From a virus, in the IMG/VR virus record IMGVR_UViG_3300018063_000009, positions 1-36,769 of that record: 36,769 nt of DNA, one strand, 5' to 3'. The notes below the pieces were generated by a model. It was not told the DNA's origin. It did no database searches and worked only from the letters and a program-made list of their open reading frames with translations. Made by a program: the position numbers and the translations under genes. This document shows positions 6,961-36,756 of the stretch, one piece after another. Numbering within the stretch: the stretch's first letter is position 1; each line of letters opens with the position of its first letter.

Positions 6961-7290
6961 ATGGCTCGTGCAATCATTCATCTTACAGCGGCTCAGCCAA
7001 ACTTCAATTACACCAACCCCGGCCCGAAAACCCAGCGCCCGATGTTCGCCAGTGCCAGCGCGCGAGCCTACGTCTTGGGGGTGCCCCCGGTGATGAGCGT
7101 ATTCCAAACTCCGCCGGGAAACTCCGAGCAAGAGGTGGATACGGTTGCGCTCTGGGCAGCGCATTCCTGGTGGGCCGCGACGAATCAACCCTTTTGCGAC
7201 GATGTAAGACCGGGGGGCGCGGTTCGGATTTCGCTCATCGCCAATATCGCGGCGGTTGACATCCGCGTAGACTTCACGGAGATCGACTAA
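6961..7290 (+). CDS. Hypothetical virion-block protein
   Basis: 109 residues with an AGGAGG site just upstream. The composition is aromatic and beta-like (HSWWAATNQPF, VRISLIANIAAVDIRVDF). The stop and the next start overlap as TAATG, tying it to the duplicated gene pair that follows. No family recognised. Confidence 0.65.
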   Translation: MARAIIHLTAAQPNFNYTNPGPKTQRPMFASASARAYVLGVPPVMSVFQTPPGNSEQEVDTVALWAAHSWWAATNQPFCDDVRPGGAVRISLIANIAAVDIRVDFTEID

Positions 7291-7733
7291 TGGCTATCTA
7301 TACGATCCGCACCACGACGGCGGGTGCTGCCGCTCCCAAGACTCATATCACCTCGACCGCCCCAGCCAATGCACGCGTCAAATTGCGCGGGCTGCTCCTG
7401 GGCAATACCGCTGCGACGGCGACGCAAGGTGTGGAGTGGGAAATTTTGCGTCTCAGCGTGAACGCCACCGGCTCGGCGCAAACGCCTAACCCACTCAACC
7501 CGGATGACATTGCCTCGCGCACAACCGCGACCTCGACCATCACCGCCGAAGGCACGTCCAGCACGATTCTGGTCGAGTTTGGCTTTGACGTTTTGACTAC
7601 TTATCCGCTCTGGTTCCCTGGATCGCCGGTTGACCTGGCTCCGCAGTATGTGAATAGCGGCATTCTCGCCCTGCGCAAGACGATTGGTGCAGATACCACC
7701 AACTGGGCCATCACCTGGTTCTTCGAGGAATAA
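7290..7733 (+). CDS. Duplicated structural protein, copy 1
   Basis: 147 residues, a close relative of the next gene. Both start M(A/P)IYT(I/V)R and share GAAAPKTHIT, RVKLRGLL, RLSVNATGSAQTPNP, NPDDIASRTTA, ITAEGTSS and a terminal FFEE. The likely fold is an all-beta domain of a virion protein, possibly a decoration or adhesin subunit, judged from composition and place only. The loops after ITAEGTSS differ strongly between the copies. Confidence 0.7.
   Translation: MAIYTIRTTTAGAAAPKTHITSTAPANARVKLRGLLLGNTAATATQGVEWEILRLSVNATGSAQTPNPLNPDDIASRTTATSTITAEGTSSTILVEFGFDVLTTYPLWFPGSPVDLAPQYVNSGILALRKTIGADTTNWAITWFFEE
7448..7492 (+). repeat. 45-nt identical block shared with 7894-7938
   Basis: The block is identical at 7894-7938, 446 bases downstream, and similarity extends over about 100 bases (roughly 7434-7540 against 7880-7986). 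It marks the core of the tandem duplication. The sharp drop in similarity on either side suggests either strong constraint or gene conversion limited to the core. Confidence 0.9.
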
Positions 7734-7738
7734 AATGG

Positions 7739-8170
7739 ATGCCCATTTACACCGTTCGCAACTTGACTACCGGGGCCGCCGCTCCCAAGACGCACATCAC
7801 GATCACCGCCCCAGCCAATGGGCGAGTGAAGTTGCGTGGCCTGCTGTTCAAAACGGGCACTACTAATGCCGCGAGTTATGAGTGGGAAATTCAGCGTCTC
7901 AGCGTGAACGCCACCGGCTCGGCGCAAACGCCTAACCCGACCAACCCGGATGACATTGCCTCGCGCACGACCGCACTCTCCGCGATCACGGCCGAGGGAA
8001 CTTCTAGCGCATCTTTGTGGGAGATTGGCGCAAACGTCTTGGGGAGCTTCAGCCTGTGGGTTCCATTGGATAAGCTAGCCGAATTGGTGAACAGCGGGAT
8101 ATTGGCCTTTGTGAAAACTGTGGGAACGCTCACGAGTCAAATTCACACTACCCTATTTTTTGAGGAGTAG
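7739..8170 (+). CDS. Duplicated structural protein, copy 2
   Basis: 143 residues, paralogue of the preceding gene. The first ~30 residues and the central RLSVNATGSAQTPNP to ITAEGTSS stretch are shared, while the C-terminal third (SLWEIGANVLGSFSLWVPLD) has diverged apart from VNSGILA and the final FFEE. The copies may form a hetero-oligomer or provide surface variants; neither is shown by the sequence. Confidence 0.7.
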   Translation: MPIYTVRNLTTGAAAPKTHITITAPANGRVKLRGLLFKTGTTNAASYEWEIQRLSVNATGSAQTPNPTNPDDIASRTTALSAITAEGTSSASLWEIGANVLGSFSLWVPLDKLAELVNSGILAFVKTVGTLTSQIHTTLFFEE

Positions 8171-8486: not shown

Positions 8487-9441
8487 GCTCGGCGCGTGGA
8501 AGGCCTGGGCCTCGCACGGCGTATCGCTCGGCCTGCGTCTGCGCCTGGCTTGGCATCGTGTCTATCCTATTGCGGGTGGAACGGCTGCCACCGCTGCCAA
8601 TGTGGCTACGGTCACGGGCTTGCCTTTTAGTCCTGACTTTGAATGGCTCCCGCCCGAGTTCTTAACAATTTGGGTGGATGACGTCGCGGCTTGGGCCCCG
8701 ACAGTCACCGAGACACCCGTCAGCCAGACGGCGAGTGGTGTGCACGAGGCGCTGCTGGGCCTGCTGTTGGGTAGTGCGGGCCTACATGAAGCGCTGATCG
8801 GTCTCGTGCAGGGCCGGGCCGGTGCGCACGAATCTCTCCTGGGCCTGTCCAGCACCGCCCAGGGGGTCATCGAATCATTGCTGGGCCTGGCCCAGGGTCG
8901 GGCCGGGATACATGAAGCGCTGGCGCTCGTGCTGCGCGCCAGTTCGGGAGACCACGAAGCGGCCGGGACGCTGATCGCCGGTCGCGTGGGCGCGCACGAG
9001 AGTCTGCTGAGCCTACTGCTGGGCAGTGCGGGCGCACATGAAGCGCTGCAAGGTCTGACCCAGGGGCGCACGGGTGTGCACGAAGCGCTGCTCGGGTTGG
9101 CCGTTAGCGCCCAGGGCCAGCACGAGGCGGGCGGCACCCTCATCATCGGACGCGGCGGCGCACACGAATCGCTGCTTGGGTTGACGCTGGCCGCGACCGG
9201 AGCGCACGAAGCGCTCGCTCTCCTGGTGCTGGCCGCGACCGGACAGCACGAGTGGCTAATCGGTCTCATAGTGCAGCGCATGGGCGCGCATGAAGCGCTG
9301 CAAGGATCCGTGGCGGAAGTGGTGATCATCGGCCCGACGCGCGCGACCCTGGGCGCCAGCCGAACGCGCGTGAGCGTGGACAGCGGCCTCGCGCAGTCGT
9401 CGCTGACAGGCCGGGGAAAAACGAAGGTGAAGATGCCGTGA
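8461..9441 (+). CDS. Protein of fourteen 14-residue HE-repeats
   Basis: 326 residues. A basic, aromatic N-terminal region (about 1-92) precedes fourteen in-register repeats of exactly 14 residues (93-288) with consensus G-x-H-E-[AS]-L-x-x-L-x-x-x-x-x, for example GAHESLLGLSSTAQ. His is present in 13 of 14 and Glu in all. A basic C-terminal tail (about 289-326) follows. Even repeat length and conserved His-Glu pairs suggest a fibrous or solenoid structure, perhaps metal stabilised. Its place among virion genes suggests a head fibre or structural rod. I do not know a named family with this repeat. The start has no strong ribosome site and overlaps the previous gene. Confidence 0.72.
   Translation: MEKQFKRTRLGAWKAWASHGVSLGLRLRLAWHRVYPIAGGTAATAANVATVTGLPFSPDFEWLPPEFLTIWVDDVAAWAPTVTETPVSQTASGVHEALLGLLLGSAGLHEALIGLVQGRAGAHESLLGLSSTAQGVIESLLGLAQGRAGIHEALALVLRASSGDHEAAGTLIAGRVGAHESLLSLLLGSAGAHEALQGLTQGRTGVHEALLGLAVSAQGQHEAGGTLIIGRGGAHESLLGLTLAATGAHEALALLVLAATGQHEWLIGLIVQRMGAHEALQGSVAEVVIIGPTRATLGASRTRVSVDSGLAQSSLTGRGKTKVKMP
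8737..9324 (+). repeat. Fourteen tandem 42-nt coding repeats
   Basis: Each unit is 42 bases and encodes one 14-residue repeat starting at Gly-x-His-Glu. Period is exact throughout with no indels. Units vary at synonymous and hydrophobic positions, so the array is old or under selection at the protein level. The last unit has lost the leucine pattern. Confidence 0.9.
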
Positions 9442-9794: not shown

Positions 9795-9831
9795 GCCGGT
9801 TGCGCGCCCCAACTAATTGGGGTAGAGTCTA
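9795..9831 (+). promoter_or_regulatory. Candidate late promoter, copy 1
   Basis: 34 of 37 bases match 36353-36389. The shared block holds TTGCGC (9800-9805) and TAGAGT (9823-9828) 17 bases apart, the spacing of a sigma70-type promoter; box matches are only moderate (about 3/6 and 4/6). Conservation of both boxes and spacing between copies that each precede a rightward operon is the main support. Confidence 0.55.
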
Positions 9832-9868
9832 GTCGTCTGACCCCCGCGAGTACGCGAGGGCAGGCGAC
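9832..9868. repeat. Long hairpin containing dispersed-hairpin copy D
   Basis: GTCGTCTG pairs with CAGGCGAC (one T-G wobble), enclosing the 20-nt element at 9841-9860. That core pairs CCC/GGG and CGCG/CGCG around an AGTA loop with one C-A mismatch. The corresponding part of the second promoter copy (36390-36397) lacks this hairpin, so it looks like an insertion between promoter and leader. Confidence 0.65.
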
Positions 9869-9890
9869 GATCTTCGACAACTGAAACGCC

Positions 9891-9967
9891 GCCCCAGCTG
9901 TTGAGCCGGGGCTGTCGAGAGATGGCGCTCGACGTGATTCTCTGTGGAGAGTCGCGTCGAGCGCTTT
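9891..9967 (+). promoter_or_regulatory. Structured leader / attenuator, copy 1
   Basis: Hairpin 1 (9891-9912) pairs GCCCC-GCT with AGC-GGGGC. Hairpin 2 (9925-9964) is an uninterrupted 18-bp stem with two T-G wobbles and a TGTG loop, followed by TTT, so it resembles an intrinsic terminator. GTCGAG at 9914-9919 can instead pair with CTCGAC at 9928-9933, the 5' arm of hairpin 2, which gives an antiterminator alternative. Bases 9908-9967 are identical to 36422-36481. An in-frame leader peptide from ATG 9922 (MALDVILCGESRRAL) is also possible. The element lies between the promoter and the protease/capsid operon. Confidence 0.65.
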
Positions 9968-9988
9968 CTGTTTATTCGCAGGTGGATT

Positions 9989-10722: not shown

Positions 10723-11958
10723 ATGGAAGCATTGATCAAGAGACTACGCGAGGAGGCCGCCGCCCTGCACGTGCAGGCGCGTGGCATCCTCGACGAGCAT
10801 CAAGACAAGGCGCTGCCTGAGGAGAAGTCCAAGCAAGTGGACAGGCTCTACGACGACTTCGACGCCAAGATCGCCGAGGCCGACCGGCTGGAGCGGTCAT
10901 TGAAGGCCGACAAGTTTTTGAACGACCCCAAGACTCGGCTGCCCGGGCCGGTCGCGCCGGGTGGCACGAACCCGGACGATAAAGGCGCGCCCACGCCGGA
11001 GCTTAAGGCCTTTCGCAAGTTTCTGAAAGGCGGCGTGCGCGTGCTCGATGCGGAGGAGAGCAAGGCCCTCAGCGCCAGCGACGACGCGGCTGGCGGCTTT
11101 GCGATCGCACCCCAACAATTCTCGCTGGAGTTGCTGAAGTTTGTGGACGACCTGGTCGTCGTCCGGCAACTGGGGCGCGTCGAGCAGATCGGCCAGGCCG
11201 AAAGCCTGGGCGTGCTCTCGCTCGACGCCGACCTGGCTGACTGGGATTGGACGACCGAACTGCAGACCGGCGCGGAAGACACCGTGAAGCCGTTCGGCAA
11301 GCGCGCCCTGACCCCGCACCCGGTGGCCAAGCGGATCAAGATCAGCAACACCCTGATCCGCCGATCGGTTCGCCCGATCGAGACCATTGCCAGCGAGCGC
11401 ATCGCTTACAAGCTGGGTGTGACCCAAGAGAAGGCTTACATGACCGGCGACGGCAGCCAGAAGCCGCTCGGGATGTTCGTGGCCGATGCCAACGGCATCC
11501 CCACCAGTCGCGATGTGACCTATACCGATACCAACGACACCACCCGCTCGGACAGCCTGGTGGACGCCAAGTTTTTTTTGAAGGCACAATATCAGGCCTC
11601 GCCTACGACTCGCTGGCTCCTGCACCGCGATTTCTTGAAGCGCATCCGCAAGTACCGCGACGCCAACGGCCTGTTCCTATGGAATGCGGGCCTGGGGCTG
11701 GTTAACGGCAACCCGGCGACAATTCTGGACATCCCCTATGTGCAGAGCGAGTTCGCGCCCAATACCTTCACCAGTGGCCTCTATATCGCCATCCTGGGCG
11801 ACATCAAGTTCTACTGGATGGTGGACAGCTTGCAGATGACCCTCCAAGTCTTGAATGAGCTGTACGCCGAGACCAATCAGCGCGGCTATATCGCGCGCTA
11901 CGAGGGCGACGGCCAGCCCATGCTGGCGGAAGCCTTTGCCCGCGTGAAGGTGGCGTAG
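10723..11958 (+). CDS. Major capsid protein, HK97 fold
   Basis: 411 residues with AAGGAG upstream. Residues 1-100 form a charged coiled-coil delta domain, probably removed by the upstream protease. The mature part shows the HK97 hallmarks: LVVVRQLGRVEQI, RIKISNTLIRRSVRPIETIA, AYMTGDGSQKPLGMF (about 239-252) and a C-terminal RGYIARYEGDGQPMLAEAFA. It builds the icosahedral shell. The gene follows the protease directly. Confidence 0.92.
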   Translation: MEALIKRLREEAAALHVQARGILDEHQDKALPEEKSKQVDRLYDDFDAKIAEADRLERSLKADKFLNDPKTRLPGPVAPGGTNPDDKGAPTPELKAFRKFLKGGVRVLDAEESKALSASDDAAGGFAIAPQQFSLELLKFVDDLVVVRQLGRVEQIGQAESLGVLSLDADLADWDWTTELQTGAEDTVKPFGKRALTPHPVAKRIKISNTLIRRSVRPIETIASERIAYKLGVTQEKAYMTGDGSQKPLGMFVADANGIPTSRDVTYTDTNDTTRSDSLVDAKFFLKAQYQASPTTRWLLHRDFLKRIRKYRDANGLFLWNAGLGLVNGNPATILDIPYVQSEFAPNTFTSGLYIAILGDIKFYWMVDSLQMTLQVLNELYAETNQRGYIARYEGDGQPMLAEAFARVKVA

Positions 11959-15558: not shown

Positions 15559-15610
15559 CCTCCGTGGGTACACGAAGGTGTATCAGAAGCCAGAAGGCAG
15601 AAGGCAGGAG
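15559..15610. repeat. Dispersed hairpin copy B plus heptamer repeats
   Basis: 15559-15578 is the best copy of the 20-nt hairpin: stem CCT-C-CGTG against CACG-A-AGG with loop GGTA. With its flank it matches 21913-21938 at 24 of 26 bases. It is followed by about four imperfect copies of AGAAGGC (about 15589-15609) that supply the purine-rich ribosome site of the next gene. The stretch separates the tail tube gene from the chaperone gene. Confidence 0.6.
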
Positions 15611-21659: not shown

Positions 21660-21947
21660 TCACCCGCGCAGCTCACGGAAACGGATCAGCACGGCCGCTT
21701 TTTGCTCGTCGGTGACGCCCGTGGTTTCATCGAGCCAGCGCCACAACAGCGCGTCGGACTCCGCTGCTTCAGCGCATTCCAGGATGTGCAGGGCATGGGC
21801 GCGGGCCTCGGCGGGCGTGAGCTGCGCCTTCATCTCACCCCAGGTCAGATGGACGAACGGTTGGCCTCGGCGCTCGAGCGCGCCGGCGATGCCGGACTCG
21901 ATGTGGATCATTCCTCCGTGGGTACCCGAAGGTATATCTGTGGACAT
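21660..21947 (-). CDS. Small helical hypothetical protein
   Basis: 95 residues. The region LTPAEARAHALHILECAEAA, ESDALLWRWL and EQKAAVLIRFRELR is a compact helical domain of a type common in phage genomes. The start at 21947 has GAGAGGTG upstream; an internal ATG at residue 13 is also possible. Copy C of the dispersed hairpin lies in its first codons. Confidence 0.65.
   Translation of the reverse strand: MSTDIPSGTHGGMIHIESGIAGALERRGQPFVHLTWGEMKAQLTPAEARAHALHILECAEAAESDALLWRWLDETTGVTDEQKAAVLIRFRELRG
21913..21932. repeat. Dispersed hairpin copy C
   Basis: Copy with core GGGTACCC; the extended match to copy B is 24 of 26 bases. It lies within the first codons of a leftward gene. Read on the minus strand the C-A mismatch of the other reading becomes a T-G wobble, so leftward RNA would pair better; one T-C mismatch remains on the plus reading. 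Confidence 0.6.
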
Positions 21948-35941: not shown

Positions 35942-35996
35942 GATTCCCAACGTTGGGAGTCGGTGAGTTGACTTCACTTCCGCTTTTTGCTACAGT
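35942..35996 (+). promoter_or_regulatory. Palindromic operator plus promoter
   Basis: A 20-base near-perfect palindrome (35942-35961, centre CCCAACGTTGGG) lies seven bases before TTGACT (35968-35973). After a 17-base spacer comes TACAGT (35991-35996). This is a classic operator-promoter layout for a dimeric regulator, at the border between early genes and the late switch. Confidence 0.72.
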
Positions 35997-36007
35997 CTCC
36001 CATAGAA

Positions 36008-36052
36008 GCCCCGAGCTGTTGGCGCCACCCCTCGCCAACAACCGGGGCATTC
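36008..36052 (+). terminator. Terminator-like hairpin right after the promoter
   Basis: GCCCCG (36008-36013) pairs with CGGGGC (36043-36048), and GTTGGCG (36018-36024) with CGCCAAC (36033-36039), followed by ATTCTTTATT. It begins only about ten bases past the expected transcript start, so it would terminate a very short RNA unless overridden. GCCCC-GAGCTGTTG resembles hairpin 1 of the late leaders. Confidence 0.68.
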
Positions 36053-36122
36053 TTTATTCCTACCCCGCTCGCTAACGCTTCCTGAACTTGTTTTCGCATC
36101 CCGTTTTTGAGACAATTTGAAA

Positions 36123-36374
36123 ATGGATCAGGGCGATCCGTCTAAAGACGATCTCGGAGAGCCGACCCCGGATGCCGTAGGCCTGCTGCACTGCCGGAGA
36201 TGCGGTATCCCGCTGGCGCGGCTCTCAATGCACGAGGGCCGGCTGTGTCTGGTAGAGGGGCAGCGTCGAATTTACGCCCTGGAGATTGATTGCCTGGGCT
36301 GCGGTGCGACGCGACACTGGCCCAGCAAGGCCGCGCGGCCACGCCTCAATGAGCCGGTTGCGCGCCCGAACTAA
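36123..36374 (+). CDS. C4 zinc-finger protein (Com-like)
   Basis: 83 residues from ATG 36123 (a TTG two codons upstream is possible). LLHCRRCGIPLAR and IDCLGCGATRHWP form a four-Cys zinc site. The layout recalls Mu Com, a small zinc protein that controls translation by binding mRNA. It lies between the palindromic promoter and the late leader and its 3' end contains the late promoter copy, so a late regulator is a reasonable guess. The ribosome site is weak. Confidence 0.58.
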   Translation: MDQGDPSKDDLGEPTPDAVGLLHCRRCGIPLARLSMHEGRLCLVEGQRRIYALEIDCLGCGATRHWPSKAARPRLNEPVARPN

Positions 36375-36389
36375 CTGAGGTAGAGTCTA
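36353..36389 (+). promoter_or_regulatory. Candidate late promoter, copy 2
   Basis: TTGCGC (36358-36363) and TAGAGT (36381-36386), 17 bases apart, match copy 1 at 9795. It overlaps the end of the zinc-finger gene and starts the lysis, terminase and portal operon. Confidence 0.55.
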
Positions 36390-36404
36390 AATAACCGAAA
36401 CGCC

Positions 36405-36487
36405 GCCCCCGCTATTGAGTTGGGGCTGTCGAGAGATGGCGCTCGACGTGATTCTCTGTGGAGAGTCGCGTCGAGCGCTTTTATTTG
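36405..36487 (+). promoter_or_regulatory. Structured leader / attenuator, copy 2
   Basis: Hairpin 1 (36405-36426) pairs GCCCC-GCT with AGT-GGGGC, keeping the fold of copy 1 through a G-T wobble. Hairpin 2 (36439-36478) is the same 18-bp stem, followed by TTTTATTT. GTCGAG (36428-36433) can pair with CTCGAC (36442-36447) as antiterminator. The small frame from ATG 36436 (MALDVILCGESRRAL) is here in frame with the holin gene. Confidence 0.68.
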
Positions 36488-36507: not shown

Positions 36508-36756
36508 ATGGATAAGATTAAGGTTTACATCACCGACCTGTTCACGAAAGTCGCGGGCCTGGGCAAGTCACGCAAGTTCTGGGCGCTGGCTGCGAGTCTC
36601 ATCTCGGTGTACCAGGCGTATGCTACGGGCGGCATTGACGTGTTCCAGGCGCTGCAACTGACGGTTGGTGCACTCGGCGCGTTCAGCCTGGGCACAGCGA
36701 TTGAAGCGAGCGGCCTCCCTGGGTACACGAAGGTGCAGAAAACCCCGGCGCAATGA
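36508..36756 (+). CDS. Holin-like membrane protein
   Basis: 82 residues from ATG 36508 with AAAGGAG upstream. A short charged start (MDKIKVYITDLFTKV), then hydrophobic segments (KFWALAASLISVYQAYATGG; VFQALQLTVGALGAFSLGTA), fits small phage holins with one or two helices. It opens the lysis cassette and its stop overlaps the next start. The frame extends upstream into the leader, but this start has the only good ribosome site. Confidence 0.7.
   Translation: MDKIKVYITDLFTKVAGLGKSRKFWALAASLISVYQAYATGGIDVFQALQLTVGALGAFSLGTAIEASGLPGYTKVQKTPAQ

Follow-up and report, generated by a model that had tools for sequence, protein, structure and literature searches.

Detailed knowledge of how phages control their late genes comes mainly from lambda-like phages and a few other cultivated ones. 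In lambda, the late promoter pR' is followed by the terminator tR' and then by the lysis and packaging genes. The put element of phage HK022 is a double hairpin of ~70 nt that acts without protein on distant terminators, and small RNAs of the 6C type have C-rich loops. Loading of Q in lambda requires a pause beside the promoter (PMC7171158), the two hairpins of put act on terminators at a distance (PMC9378689), and the hairpin loops of ANTAR leaders are marked by A1 and G4 (PMC3369936). The phage described here carries a promoter and a structured leader before each of two late operons, and our comparison with related phages suggests that these leaders act as a terminator/antiterminator switch.

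Two leaders in one phage genome

The window, by which we mean the whole 36,769-nucleotide stretch of IMG/VR record IMGVR_UViG_3300018063_000009, shares a 123-nt terminal repeat between its ends in a self-comparison, and the record is therefore most likely circular, with a complete circle of 36,646 bp. Counted around this circle, the lysis-side leader lies ~10.1 kb before the protease-side leader. The main features are as follows.

9800..9828, + strand: protease-side promoter TTGCGC-17-TAGAGT, by direct reading, with a counterpart at the equivalent place in the nearest homologue (L071)
9832..9868, + strand: extra 5' hairpin of the protease-side leader only, by RNA fold; absent from 36390-36484
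9891..9912, + strand: hairpin 1 (GCCCC...GGGGC) of the protease-side leader, by folding; aligns with the class II GNCC-UGG...GGNC hairpin (A4, A6)
9913..9934, + strand: putative antiterminator hairpin UGUCGAG-AGAUGGCG-CUCGACG, protease-side, overlapping the terminator 5' arm
9924..9972, + strand: T2-type terminator stem with U-rich tail, protease-side, from the terminator scan; pairs kept in L071
9989..10711, + strand: prohead protease (Peptidase_S78), first gene 3' of the protease-side leader
10723..11958, + strand: major capsid protein
36358..36386, + strand: lysis-side promoter P2, TTGCGC-17-TAGAGT, by direct reading
36405..36426, + strand: hairpin 1 of the lysis-side leader, by RNA fold
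36427..36448, + strand: putative antiterminator hairpin of the lysis-side leader, from the swap test, A4 pair counts and truncated-transcript folds
36438..36486, + strand: T2 terminator stem with U tract, lysis-side, from the terminator scan and RNA fold
36508..36756, + strand: small membrane protein encoded at the head of the lysis/terminase operon, with a holin-like position and composition

The small membrane protein had no family match in the scans of window proteins and none in a membrane-protein (holin) scan; its position and composition suggest a lysis-type, holin-like protein. Downstream of its gene, past the junction of the circle, come an Rz-like spanin (107), TerS (1870), TerL (2388) and then the portal. 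The phage also encodes an integrase. The window further contains coding repeats with a 42-nt period (8737-9299; several copies, 61–73% identity), adjoining duplicated genes (7290-7733 and 7739-8170; DNA identity 74–81% in parts), and a near-identical dispersed stretch of ~26 nt (CCTCCGTGGGTAC-CGAAGGT) at 15559-15584, at 21913-21938 and at the 3' end of the 36508-36756 gene, where the third copy encodes the end of the membrane protein.

The original prediction described a repeated promoter-like block and an identical leader block, and both were recovered: 9795-9831 and 36353-36389 agree at 34 of 37 positions, and 9908-9967 equals 36422-36481 (60/60). The latter block sits in a longer repeat (9879-9967 versus 36393-36481) with 94% identity over 89 nt. 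The 18-bp terminator-like stem with a U-tract is likewise present in both copies, before protease/capsid and before lysis/terminase. Including an outer pair, each stem has 19 pairs, a TGTG loop and a T-rich tail; no other terminator-like site in the window is as strong. RNA folding gave z-scores of -6.8 (lysis-side) and -7.8 (protease-side), and none of 200 shuffles folded as well. In line with what had been claimed, two U-G pairs fold as RNA on the plus strand, and hairpin 1 keeps its fold (5 + 3 pairs in both copies) although its sequence varies.

A competing pairing of GTCGAG (9914-9919) with CTCGAC (9928-9933) had been proposed as an antiterminator. This pairing can form, with p ~0.01–0.02 against shuffled upstream sequence. 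Judged from the window alone, the predicted antiterminator is only suggestive; the relatives, which provide most of the support, make the case strong. In the protease-side leader only, UUCGACA (~9872-9878) can also pair with the antiterminator strand UGUCGAG (within 9872-9919), and it could possibly sequester that strand in a third state.

Structure and layout outlast sequence

Relatives were gathered through TerL, protease and capsid homology. The nearest homologue, L071, has a protease that is 67% and a capsid that is 65% identical. Its elements follow the order of the window: a promoter (TTGACG-17-TAGAGT), then hairpins, a stem of 20 bp with its U tract, a ribosome-binding site and the protease. 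Compared with the window, all 18 of 18 terminator pairs are kept, nine of them changed on both sides, and five of six antiterminator pairs are kept, two of them changed on both sides. Yet blastn of the leader against the relatives, including L071, found nothing real; since it is blind at the L071 leader, structure and layout evidently outlast sequence. An exact scan of IMG/VR for the 41-nt stem found nothing, blastn against named phages gave no relative, and Rfam gave no family at the gathering score, with weak sub-threshold matches only.

The same architecture occurs more widely. A promoter, leader and terminator precede lysis-type genes in L072, L107 and L109, a terminator is also present in L118, and strong terminators lie directly 5' of the protease in L110, L111, L115, L116 and L122. 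In L072, a 15-bp stem without U tract (9925-9965) lies directly 5' of the protease, at the terminator position of the relatives. Scans of IMG/VR yielded ~25 further uncultivated phage contigs with P2, leader and T2 before lysis or terminase/portal genes. P2 of these relatives mostly scores 9–12 of 12 as a promoter, and the gap from terminator to start codon is usually only 20–60 nt, which leaves little room for a further promoter. A pattern on the 5' motif alone gave mostly chance matches and one true new leader, L179. The original prediction hinged on homologues with compensatory changes; these exist in ~25 phages and in L071, so the reading was not refuted.

The segment immediately 5' of T2 pairs with the 5' arm of T2, beginning 2–4 nt into the arm, in all 25 of 25 leaders. 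The loops of this predicted antiterminator are 4–11 nt long and begin with AG in most leaders. In the lysis-side leader of the window (W2) the stem has 7 bp, and its offsets equal those of 24 relatives. When partners were swapped between phages, none of 20,000 swaps reached the real pairing total, and the pairing scores above that at 22 other terminators of those contigs (p 0.0002). In A4, the class II alignment that includes the window, the antiterminator cells are 100% paired with double changes, compared to 22–57% when slid, and 0 of 500 shuffles did as well. Class I leaders have another upstream stem that covaries (score 0.758 versus at most 0.283 slid). These tests ignore tree structure and their counts overstate independence, although the stems nonetheless take many different sequences. 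The evidence is collective, as the pairing is not significant alone in most single leaders, and the antiterminator is weak in L128 (3 bp) and in L179 (~3 bp; found without the small-RNA pattern).

The window leaders are divergent within the family. Models built without them (R1 and the sequence-only R3) gave no match in the window up to E = 10, and R2 includes window rows, so that its matches in the window do not count. Membership of the window rests on layout (promoter, leader, terminator with U tract, then a late gene), hairpin 1, antiterminator geometry and L071.

Second leaders, detected by R1 and R2, occur in at least five other phage contigs (L144, L147, L150, L152 and the L129 contig), and when read out they have a promoter 5' and a gene 3'. 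The two copies of L150 differ by a compensatory G-C to A-U change in the antiterminator. Because two leaders recur in other phage contigs, the duplication in the window appears to be a recurring design rather than a chance duplication. The L152 record (G414, 67,683 bases) holds four leaders, grouped as two pairs with ~36 kb between them, as would be expected of two related phage units in tandem.

A small promoter-terminator unit upstream

A further unit closely precedes the late leader in L072, L107 and L109: a near-perfect promoter, P1, leads straight into T1, a hairpin that has the loop GCCCCCCUC and a U tail. A comparable unit is present in the window.

35968..35996, + strand: promoter P1, TTGACT-17-TACAGT
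36004..36053, + strand: T1-like hairpin directly after P1, its loop C-rich and its tail of U, predicted to give an RNA of ~55 nt; z -6.2, positioned as the T1 units of relatives

The T1 loop is CCACCCCU in the window, versus the six-C GCCCCCCUC in relatives. A scan of IMG/VR with the P1-T1 pattern gave 33 stretches, against ~1 expected by chance on a rough estimate, and most of these have P2, leader and T2 downstream; none was found in 400 Chloroflexota genomes. The loop identity of the scanned units was imposed by the search pattern and is not evidence of conservation, but the five loci known before the scan already had an identical loop. The units of the window (35968-36053), L072, L107, L109 and L123-L154 predict an RNA of ~50–60 nt beside the late leader. 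A role of the T1 loop as antisense RNA was rejected, as complementary 8-mers were not enriched in phages. In L072, L107 and L109, the gene 5' of P1 contains an intracoding hairpin with a T run behind it (CTGGAGCT...AGCTCCAG, then TTTTGTTTTTC or a close variant).

A proposed coordinated late switch and its alternatives

The sequences thus show elements in conserved order and covariation in the pairings of both antiterminator and terminator, and several phages have two leaders on one contig. From these observations we infer termination, read-through, timing, and the existence and nature of a factor. Both late operons would start with a promoter, a leader of ~95–140 nt and an intrinsic terminator just 5' of the ribosome-binding site. 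In the default state, the long stem of the terminator would form and transcription would stop, leaving a short RNA. While the polymerase is still within the terminator loop, the upstream leader segment could pair with the terminator 5' arm as an antiterminator, mostly of 4–9 bp. When growing transcripts were folded with ViennaRNA, the antiterminator appeared in 23 of 26 leaders as long as the 3' arm was still missing, and in 0 of 26 at full length. Because the terminator is by far the stronger of the two, the antiterminator should be displaced without a factor. A late trans-acting factor might hold it, probably together with hairpin 1, which would block the terminator base near the U tract and allow transcription of the late genes. 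With two leader copies, one factor could switch both operons on together. The covariation, the folds of truncated transcripts and the recurrence of two copies support the coordinated attenuation or antitermination originally proposed, and we consider coordinated control of the two late operons through such switch leaders the best reading and a reasonably probable one.

No Q/N-type family was found among ~30 window proteins scanned, and the Q families PF03589, PF06530 and PF06323 had no match in 20 window proteins scanned with Pfam, some small ORFs having been scanned with PHROGs only. Nor did an ANTAR protein appear among the window proteins scanned with Pfam, although the host might supply one. 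The zinc protein (36117), put forward earlier as a candidate factor, was not seen at the equivalent place in relatives, and hence nothing ties it to the leader. A search for a shared regulator gene gave as its most widespread cluster (17 contigs) a family without known domain, a ~205-aa protein (L127:5711-6325 and relatives) that travels with the cassette, up- or downstream. Reading AUGAGCGC as a leader peptide was rejected, because its start codon is not conserved.

The lack of a Q family match is one of the points against a lambda Q-like explanation, in which a phage protein loads on the polymerase at a promoter-proximal pause and makes the polymerase ignore the leader and later terminators, the antiterminator being secondary, for instance a pause hairpin. 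The layout equals that of lambda pR'-tR' (promoter, terminator, lysis genes, terminase), and the transcript start is conserved, with TNAAT of ACAACTNAATA ~12 nt after the -10 in 18 of 25 leaders versus 1.7 in shuffles, as would fit a promoter-proximal signal. However, this motif has a different register in the window, and the covariation of the antiterminator at fixed geometry is left unexplained, which makes this explanation unlikely.

The leader RNA alone might instead modify RNA polymerase without a phage protein, as put does. The hairpins come after a promoter, and no shared antiterminator gene was seen. Phages with at least three TerL types (phrog_2/22646, phrog_38 and phrog_9) carry the cassette, a distribution suggestive of a host factor or of a mobile module. 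Yet put acts at a distance without sharing a terminator pairing (PMC9378689), whereas in these leaders the second hairpin belongs to the terminator, and there is no visible sequence relation. We give this explanation little credence. Equally little can be given to constitutive partial terminators that tune late gene dosage or insulate operons, with the alternative pairing unused. The protease-side terminators of L110, L115, L116 and L122 indeed come without an equivalent antiterminator geometry, but in nearly every lysis-side case a promoter lies directly 5' of the terminator, and a plain terminator does not need a covarying pairing. A 5' UTR stem serving mRNA stability or RNase III processing would suit long near-perfect stems directly 5' of the ribosome-binding site and the protease-side stem of L072, but is very improbable given the U tract in 24 of 26 leaders and the conserved switch pairing.

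A single protease relative sits on a contig of an Anaerolineales MAG, which points weakly to Anaerolineales as hosts. Rather speculatively, the phages may carry a regulon of an undescribed kind, with one small C-loop RNA and one or two switch leaders per genome. It would be recognised either by a host factor or directly by RNA polymerase, and would serve phages of different packaging lineages as the shared late-gene switch of a single host group, which might be the Anaerolineales.

Comparison with known systems

Our results make a comparative case for a late switch of overlapping antiterminator and terminator hairpins in ~25 uncultivated phages with no recognisable antiterminator gene. It is a candidate undescribed RNA switch that would turn on lysis and particle-building genes. 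The DNA pieces are short (~150 bp) and suit reporter or in vitro tests, offering a handle on a new RNA-binding or polymerase-modifying factor.

The T1 RNA of the relatives resembles 6C-type small RNAs in its six-C loop, but it is a single hairpin, phage-borne and with no target found, and the Rfam scan was negative. The comparison with HK022 put made in the original prediction holds for the layout, a transcribed RNA element present twice, each time after a phage promoter (PMC9378689), but this is not specific: put serves early operons with hairpins separate from the terminators, whereas here a hairpin overlaps its own terminator, and no relation in sequence was seen. As in lambda pR'-tR' with Q (PMC7171158), a late promoter is followed by a terminator and then by lysis and packaging genes; the phage leaders differ in their covarying antiterminator RNA, in having two copies per phage and in that no Q homologue was found.

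Like the RAT of BglG/LicT (PMC3369936), the predicted antiterminator excludes the terminator. RAT, which is held by a protein, has a stem with two asymmetric internal loops and a sugar-uptake context, and the phage leaders have neither. ANTAR leaders (AmiR, NasR, EutV; PMC3369936) likewise have a hairpin P1 followed by a hairpin P2 that overlaps the 5' part of an intrinsic terminator, an overlap also found in the phage leaders, and a single factor governs several leaders of a gene cluster. In contrast, the phage leaders precede phage late genes, their hairpin 1 differs, and their loops have no constant G4; the A1 and G4 rule does not hold for both loops, the window loop being AGAUGGCG and the hairpin 1 loop AUUG/GUUG. 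By analogy, then, the leader would represent a new RNA family that uses a known type of switch, with a logic closest to that of ANTAR/LicT leaders and a placement like that of lambda pR'-tR'.
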